From: Nitrososphaera sp. AFS
GTDB lineage: Archaea; Thermoproteota; Nitrososphaeria; Nitrososphaerales; Nitrososphaeraceae
Length of the DNA: 54,421 nt
Assembly (NCBI RefSeq): GCF_009898475.1
Contig: NZ_QURE01000002.1
Span: 1-54,421, forward strand
Direction of reading: 5' to 3'
How positions within the stretch are numbered: the first letter of the stretch is position 1; every line of letters begins with the position of its first letter. A program made the translations under genes and the position numbers. The notes below the pieces were generated by a model, which saw nothing but the letters and a program-made list of their open reading frames with translations, was not told where the DNA came from and ran no database searches. Positions 25,844-37,984 of the stretch are shown piece by piece.

Positions 25844-25978
25844 TGCGGGGGGTGGGAGTTGAACCCACGAATTCCTAAGAAACAGGGTTCTAGGAACAAG
25901 GTTTGAAGCCTGCTCATTCTAAGCATCGCACTTCAAGTATTAAGTCCTGCGCCGTTGGCCAGGCTTGGCAACCCCCGC
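25844..25978 (-). tRNA. tRNA-Leu (probably UAA) with an intron in the anticodon loop
   Basis: Acceptor GCGGGGG (25978-25972) pairs with CCCCCGC, discriminator A at 25844. The D arm is GCC-AAGCCTGGCCAA-CGGC. T arm GTGGG-TTCAACT-CCCAC. The anticodon stem opens CAGGA followed by CTTAA, so anticodon TAA. The 3' half resumes at ACCCTG (25888) with a type II variable arm TTC-TTAG-GAA. The total of 135 nt minus a mature 85 nt leaves a 50-nt intron (25889-25938) at the canonical 37/38 site. The top anticodon pair would be an A-C mismatch in this model, so the exact junction is not certain. Confidence 0.85.
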
Positions 25979-37852: not shown

Positions 37853-37944
37853 TAGCCCGGCCCAGATTCGAACTGGGGTCAAAGGCTCCAAAGGCCTCTA
37901 TGCTTGGCCACTACATTCGGCAGAATTCAATCTACTACCGGGCT
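37853..37944 (-). tRNA. tRNA-Gln (UUG) with an apparent 19-nt intron in the D arm
   Basis: Acceptor AGCCCGG (37944-37938) pairs with CCGGGCT, discriminator A at 37853. Anticodon stem GAGGC/GCCTT with loop CTTTGGA gives anticodon TTG. T arm CCCAG-TTCGAAT-CTGGG. The D arm should read TAGTG-TAGTGGCCAAG-CAT, but 19 extra nt (37915-37933) interrupt it after TAGT. The insert contains a small hairpin, ATTC-TGCC-GAAT. Without it a normal 73-nt tRNA remains. This looks like a non-canonical archaeal intron. Confidence 0.88.
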
Positions 37945-37984
37945 TCCGGGCGTATTTTGAATAGATGATCCCATCTTTAGAATG

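Follow-up and report, generated by a model that had tools for sequence, protein, structure and literature searches.

How can an intron be removed from a tRNA when the pairing that would bring its two ends together uses bases which, in the mature tRNA, belong to the acceptor stem? This question is raised by the tRNA-Gln(UUG) gene of Nitrososphaera sp. AFS, which lies in the stretch of 54,421 nucleotides analysed here (the window; positions 1 to 54,421 of contig NZ_QURE01000002.1). The host assembly is a 2.34-Mb MAG of the family Nitrososphaeraceae, 89.6% complete. The sole tRNA-Gln(UUG) gene detected has an intron between tRNA nucleotides 10 and 11, whose bulge-helix-bulge (BHB) splicing would probably be helped by a copy of the acceptor strand in the leader, through the freeing of exon 1.

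An intron in the D stem

The features of the gene are the following:

37944–37935, minus: exon 1, tRNA nucleotides 1–10, AGCCCGGUAG (direct reading; relatives with the intron nearly all have the same sequence or a UGG variant)
37934–37916, minus: 19-nt intron UAGAUUGAAUUCUGCCGAA at 10/11 (homologous inserts in the order; intronless homologues join exactly there)
37915–37854, minus: exon 2, nucleotides 11–72, anticodon UUG, UGUAGUGGCCAAGCAUAGAGGCCUUUGGAGCCUUUGACCCCAGUUCGAAUCUGGGCCGGGCU (Rfam match; identity in the family)
37853, minus: discriminator A73 (direct reading)
37860–37854, minus: 3′ acceptor strand CCGGGCU, for which exon 1 and the leader copy compete (direct reading; partition functions, leader present or removed)
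37946–37951, minus: leader copy GCCCGG of acceptor nucleotides 2–7 (set 1 nt ahead of the tRNA; able to pair with the 3′ acceptor strand)
37937–37940, minus: C5 G6 G7 U8, exon side of a predicted 4-bp splice helix, H (of 83 distinct introns, 82 allow all four pairs)
37918–37921, minus: GCCG, intron side of helix H (one of GCCG, GCUG and ACCG in all but two of 83 distinct introns)
37922–37933, minus: intron hairpin h′ (AGA/UCU, loop UUGAAU), abutting H (closing run compared with shuffles over 83 introns)

Along the minus strand, the leader (...UACGCCCGGA) is followed by exon 1, the intron, exon 2 and A73, and the hand reading of the gene is AGCCCGGUAG, UAGAUUGAAUUCUGCCGAA and UGUAGUGGCCAAGCAUAGAGGCCUUUGGAGCC...CCGGGCU+A. 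Removal of 19 nt from 37944..37853 (minus strand) leaves a complete tRNA-Gln(UUG) with the D-stem pairs G10-U25, U11-A24, G12-C23 and U13-G22, and the spliced sequence agrees with the intronless homologues of the order. ARAGORN made no call for the gene, and the Rfam tRNA match (37917–37861, minus) is limited to model positions 9–63, as is to be expected of a gene broken near its 5′ end. Both exons are adjacent and in order at 37944–37853, so that the gene is not of the split or permuted kind; the argininosuccinate lyase gene, which matches Nitrososphaeraceae, adjoins it.

Relatives of the gene were sought by BLAST with exon 2 in 70 genomes of the family and 305 of the order, and 143 genes, picked regardless of leader, were parsed: 94 with the intron and 49 without. 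Exon 2 is almost invariant in the family (its 62 nt are 100% identical in many members), an insert is present at 10/11 in 64 of 64 parsed family genes, and intronless homologues read AGCCCGGUAGUGUAG directly. Thus, the insert is not there by chance. It is also found in seven other families (f2, f3, f7, f12, f14, one f10 genome and many f9 genera), and the 94 intron-bearing genes hold 83 distinct introns of 15–68 nt (median 20). In three of these families (f7, f12 and f14; loci L166, L170, L171, L172 and L173) tRNA-Gln(UUG) is interrupted twice, by the intron at 10/11 and by a further insert that separates D arm and anticodon stem.

The spliced reading and the homologous inserts at the same site in the order bear out what an earlier note on this DNA had claimed, namely a short non-canonical intron in the D stem of tRNA-Gln(UUG). 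That note placed the intron at 37915–37933. Its length of 19 nt stands, as does the product, the boundary being ambiguous by one base such that 37915–37933 and 37916–37934 give the same mature tRNA; however, relatives without this ambiguity put the cut after G10 and together favour 37916–37934, one base away.

On a tree of RpoB sequences, the state of the intron changes at least five times on supported branches and nine times by parsimony, and both states occur within the genera g36, g50 and g55. As helix H is the same throughout, the simplest reading of this comparison would be one old gain followed by several losses, the alternative being repeated gain.

A single tRNA-Gln(UUG) gene was found in the MAG (89.6% complete), and a single one in each of the complete family genomes G006, G016, G024, G028 and G033. 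The second intact gene, which the earlier note had named as the finding that would overturn its reading, was seen in none of these. Two genomes (G061 and G069; loci L076 and L077) have 41-nt 3′ tRNA-Gln fragments, identical to the 3′ end of the gene and away from the full gene, which are possibly attachment-site copies left by integrating elements. In several Nitrosopumilaceae-like genomes (L175, L211, L144, L153, L163), the anticodon loop of tRNA-Gln has C33 in place of the near-universal U (CCUUGGA or CCCUGGA).

A probable splice motif and the host endonuclease

The bases that face C5G6G7U8, ending two before the 3′ cut, are GCCG in 56 distinct introns, GCUG in 15 and ACCG in 10. The exceptions among the 83 are one GCCU, with three pairs, and the genome G049, in which CCGU/GCGG is a compensatory change in helix H. 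The changes preserve pairing (G-C to G-U, U-G to U-A, and CGGU/GCCG to CCGU/GCGG). The remaining intron bases can fold into hairpin h′, whose closing run averages 4.0 bp over the 83 introns versus 0.68 in shuffles and reaches 3 bp or more in 71 of them. A 4-bp helix flanked by 3-nt bulges that carry both cut sites (RG↓N and AN↓U, the arrow being the cut) can be drawn for 82 of the 83 distinct introns. The splicing endonuclease, EndA, cuts inside a bulge between the second and third base, and in the bulges of the window gene (A9 G10↓U and A A↓U11) both predicted cuts lie at that point. By the BHB definition, a 4-bp helix with 3-nt bulges is the archaeal EndA substrate (PMC4090602). An outer exon helix straight after the 3′ bulge, as the strict hBHBh′ form has it, is absent, C4-G12 being the only direct pair; an outer helix would consist either of this pair alone, leaving a 3-nt bulge, or of GCC/GGY at the cost of an 8-nt bulge. 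Because the outer helix is missing, the motif is a relaxed BHB.

Two other pairings were rejected. In 43 of the 83 introns, helix H could be prolonged by nucleotides 9–10 pairing with intron bases, which would close the 5′ bulge and counts against the motif; an extended helix of this kind is possible in just those 43, compared with the 71 that have hairpin h′. The pairing ATTC/GAAT, put forward in the earlier note as the splicing helix, is not conserved, whereas C5G6G7U8 with the intron GCCG is, together with the separate intron hairpin.

The EndA alpha subunit of the host (199 amino acids) retains the Tyr/His/Lys triad and aligns with Aeropyrum pernix EndA through the Crenarchaea-specific loop (CSL), its Lys54 lying opposite Lys44, the CSL lysine that has been linked to broad specificity (PMC6379350). 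Two EndA subunit genes are present in 11 of 11 relatives tested. The second subunit, EndA beta, was not found in the MAG (89.6% complete), and this is attributed to the incompleteness of the assembly; Thaumarchaeota enzymes have been reported as alpha2beta2 (PMC4090602). The expectation that the host EndA would be of the broad-specificity type is therefore in keeping with an alpha subunit that has both the catalytic triad and the CSL lysine, and with a second subunit in every relative tested. These comparisons support a host enzyme of a type fit for relaxed motifs, putatively (alpha-beta)2 with the CSL lysine, the beta subunit being supplied from relatives only.

A copy of the acceptor strand in the leader

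Since helix H takes C5–G7, helix H and the acceptor stem are mutually exclusive. In 94 of 94 intron-bearing genes, acceptor nucleotides 2–7 are repeated just upstream of nucleotide 1. The copy is GCCCGG in 72 genes, GUCCGG in 16, GCUCGG in 3 and GCCUGG in 1; the remaining forms are GCCCCG in G049 (acceptor AGCCCCG) and AUCCGG, with 5 pairs, in G168. It is separated from the tRNA by 1 nt in 80 genes, by 0–3 nt in 93 and by 10 nt in G320. These six nucleotides are conserved across 29 genera, with unconserved flanking positions. Their variation is nearly all from C to U, and GUCCGG, GCUCGG and GCCUGG still pair with G of the 3′ acceptor strand. G049 shows a joint change of all three elements: its acceptor reads AGCCCCG, its intron GCGG and its leader AGCCCCG.

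The duplex of leader and 3′ acceptor strand has a mean dG of −13.3 kcal/mol in intron-bearing genes versus −5.4 in intronless genes. When the copy is scored as present at a duplex dG of −9 or below, it is present in 93 of 94 intron-bearing and 3 of 49 intronless genes, and these three exceptions are marginal (−9.0 to −9.9). Of five independent pairs on the RpoB tree, a mean of 4.7 have the leader changing along with the intron, and the mean for the opposite direction is zero; with the small sample of n=5 pairs, the median p of the sign test is 0.0625. Among the 30 other tRNA genes of the complete genome G028, none has such a leader (lowest dG −6.5). In the genome of the window, no acceptor copy adjoins any other complete tRNA gene, and two other tRNA genes reach about −10 once 25 nt upstream are allowed.

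Two other accounts of the copy were rejected. It is not the true 5′ end of the tRNA, as its first bases vary and no U8-A/G9 follows it, unlike in the intronless homologues. A leader hairpin (leader CCGG with exon CCGG) is possible in most genes but not in G049, where the pairing of leader with 3′ strand is kept. Intronless Nitrosopumilus-like members of g54 in f9 (e.g., L168, L180, L190–L192) have a conserved upstream GUGCUCGAUUUAGC, which holds GCUCG, a weaker complement of the 3′ acceptor strand, 6–7 nt upstream; this stretch may be a relic of the leader copy or a promoter element.

The effect of the leader on folding was calculated as ViennaRNA partition functions over 94 precursors. The mean probability of helix H, P(H), falls from 0.57 with the native leader to 0.195 when leaders are shuffled and 0.11 when they are removed, while the mean probability of the acceptor stem rises from 0.18 to 0.71 and 0.88, respectively. 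The native leader makes a mean of 4.75 pairs with the 3′ acceptor strand. For the window gene, the calculated P(H) is 0.57 with the leader and 0.00 without. In G049 there is no clear gain in P(H) from the leader, and in G168, with the 5-bp copy, the model gives a P(H) of 0. In the nascent 5′ part of the transcript the leader lowers the computed P(H) (0.42 versus 0.69), and a leader retained beyond splicing goes on competing with the acceptor stem, the computed probability of which is then 0.31; thus, any benefit of the leader would be confined to the full-length precursor at equilibrium.

These results are probably best explained by the following course of events. In the precursor, C5G6G7U8 would pair with the intron GCCG and the remaining intron would form a short hairpin, a fold that would compete with the mature acceptor stem. 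The leader GCCCGG would stand in for exon 1 on the 3′ acceptor strand, so that helix H could persist in the full-length precursor. An (alpha-beta)2 EndA would cut each bulge after its second base, and the exons would then be joined. After splicing and removal of the leader, exon 1 would regain the 3′ acceptor strand. It is fairly likely, if less so than the splicing itself with some help from the leader, that removal of the intron depends on the copy as a “placeholder”, that maturation of this tRNA is an ordered exchange of strands, and that the copy is kept or lost together with the intron.

Perhaps the copy acts mainly on 5′ processing: its pairing with the 3′ acceptor strand would delay RNase P until splicing is done, instead of helping EndA directly. 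This is unlikely, despite requiring the same pairing and agreeing with the low stem probability (only 0.31) when the leader is retained after splicing, as a delay of RNase P alone leaves unexplained why helix H needs the acceptor strand to be freed and the calculated P(H) goes up about fivefold with the leader. Delay and help with splicing can also coexist.

It is rather improbable that the intron is real and spliced and the copy has no role in splicing, being a promoter or start-site element, or a hitchhiker that disappears when the loss of an intron replaces the whole 5′ region. Under such linked replacement, leader and intron would be lost at the same time, the independent changes are few, and the leader sits where transcription could start; however, a block of 6 nt is conserved across the 29 genera amid unconserved flanks with variants that nearly all preserve pairing, tracks the altered acceptor in G049, and is absent from other tRNA genes of the genome. 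That the gene is a disrupted pseudogene, with an intact tRNA-Gln(UUG) in the part of the genome that the MAG (89.6% complete) lacks, is scarcely credible, being contradicted already by the complete family genomes, which have no second full UUG gene, and by the family-wide conservation of the site and structure of the insert and the near-invariance of exon 2.

Relation to other tRNA introns

Removal of the tRNA-Gln intron with the help of the leader placeholder, the reading preferred here, can be compared with three known systems. With the archaeal non-canonical (relaxed) BHB introns of Crenarchaeota and Thaumarchaeota (PMC4090602, PMC8450103, PMC3218864), the gene shares a short insert outside 37/38, a 4-bp helix, 3-nt bulges carrying the cuts, an intron hairpin and, putatively, an (alpha-beta)2 EndA with the CSL lysine. 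It differs in its site, 10/11 being absent from the positions given in the text of the review, in a splice helix that uses acceptor nucleotides 5–7 and U8, and in the acceptor copy of its leader. The description of such introns as known mainly from crenarchaea is out of date: tRNAscan-SE 2.0 has a dedicated model for thaumarchaeal non-canonical introns, of which 107 were counted in Thaumarchaeota genomes (PMC8450103). With split and permuted archaeal tRNA genes (PMC3218864, PMC4090602), what is shared is a flanking leader that joins in the pairing that enables splicing, whereas the tRNA-Gln gene is continuous and its leader is proposed as a stand-in on the 3′ acceptor strand rather than as a builder of the BHB with another half. 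The introns of tRNA-Arg(CCU) (L026) and tRNA-Asp (L247) in the same family have a similar 4-bp helix, AG↓N bulges and a short D-arm intron, but their helix lies inside the D arm, the acceptor stem is unused and no leader copy was seen.

The intron itself is ordinary in kind and has very probably been predicted in databases already. A leader copy of the acceptor strand tied to an intron, or competition between leader and acceptor stem in an intron-bearing pre-tRNA, was not found described in the openly licensed literature; as far as could be found there, the coupled “placeholder” is undescribed, and it is the part that deserves the attention of specialists. The leaders of tRNAs are commonly regarded as disposable. 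The 6-nt element described here seems to be selected solely on account of an intron, in an archaeal group that is among the most abundant of soil and sea. If true, this would explain the persistence of an intron where the splice motif must break the acceptor stem, it would predict splicing before 5′ trimming, and the independent losses would be a natural test set for the co-evolution of leader and intron.

Introns are plentiful among the tRNA genes of this genome. The window also holds, at 25844–25978 (minus strand), a 135-nt gene resembling tRNA-Leu whose anticodon region is broken by a long insert; ARAGORN calls this gene as Ser with a 52-nt intron. The tRNA-Arg(CCU) gene mentioned above (L026; G000 contig C18, near 1982–2040) contains an 18-nt intron in its D loop, where a GCGC/GCGC helix is flanked on either side by an AG↓A bulge.
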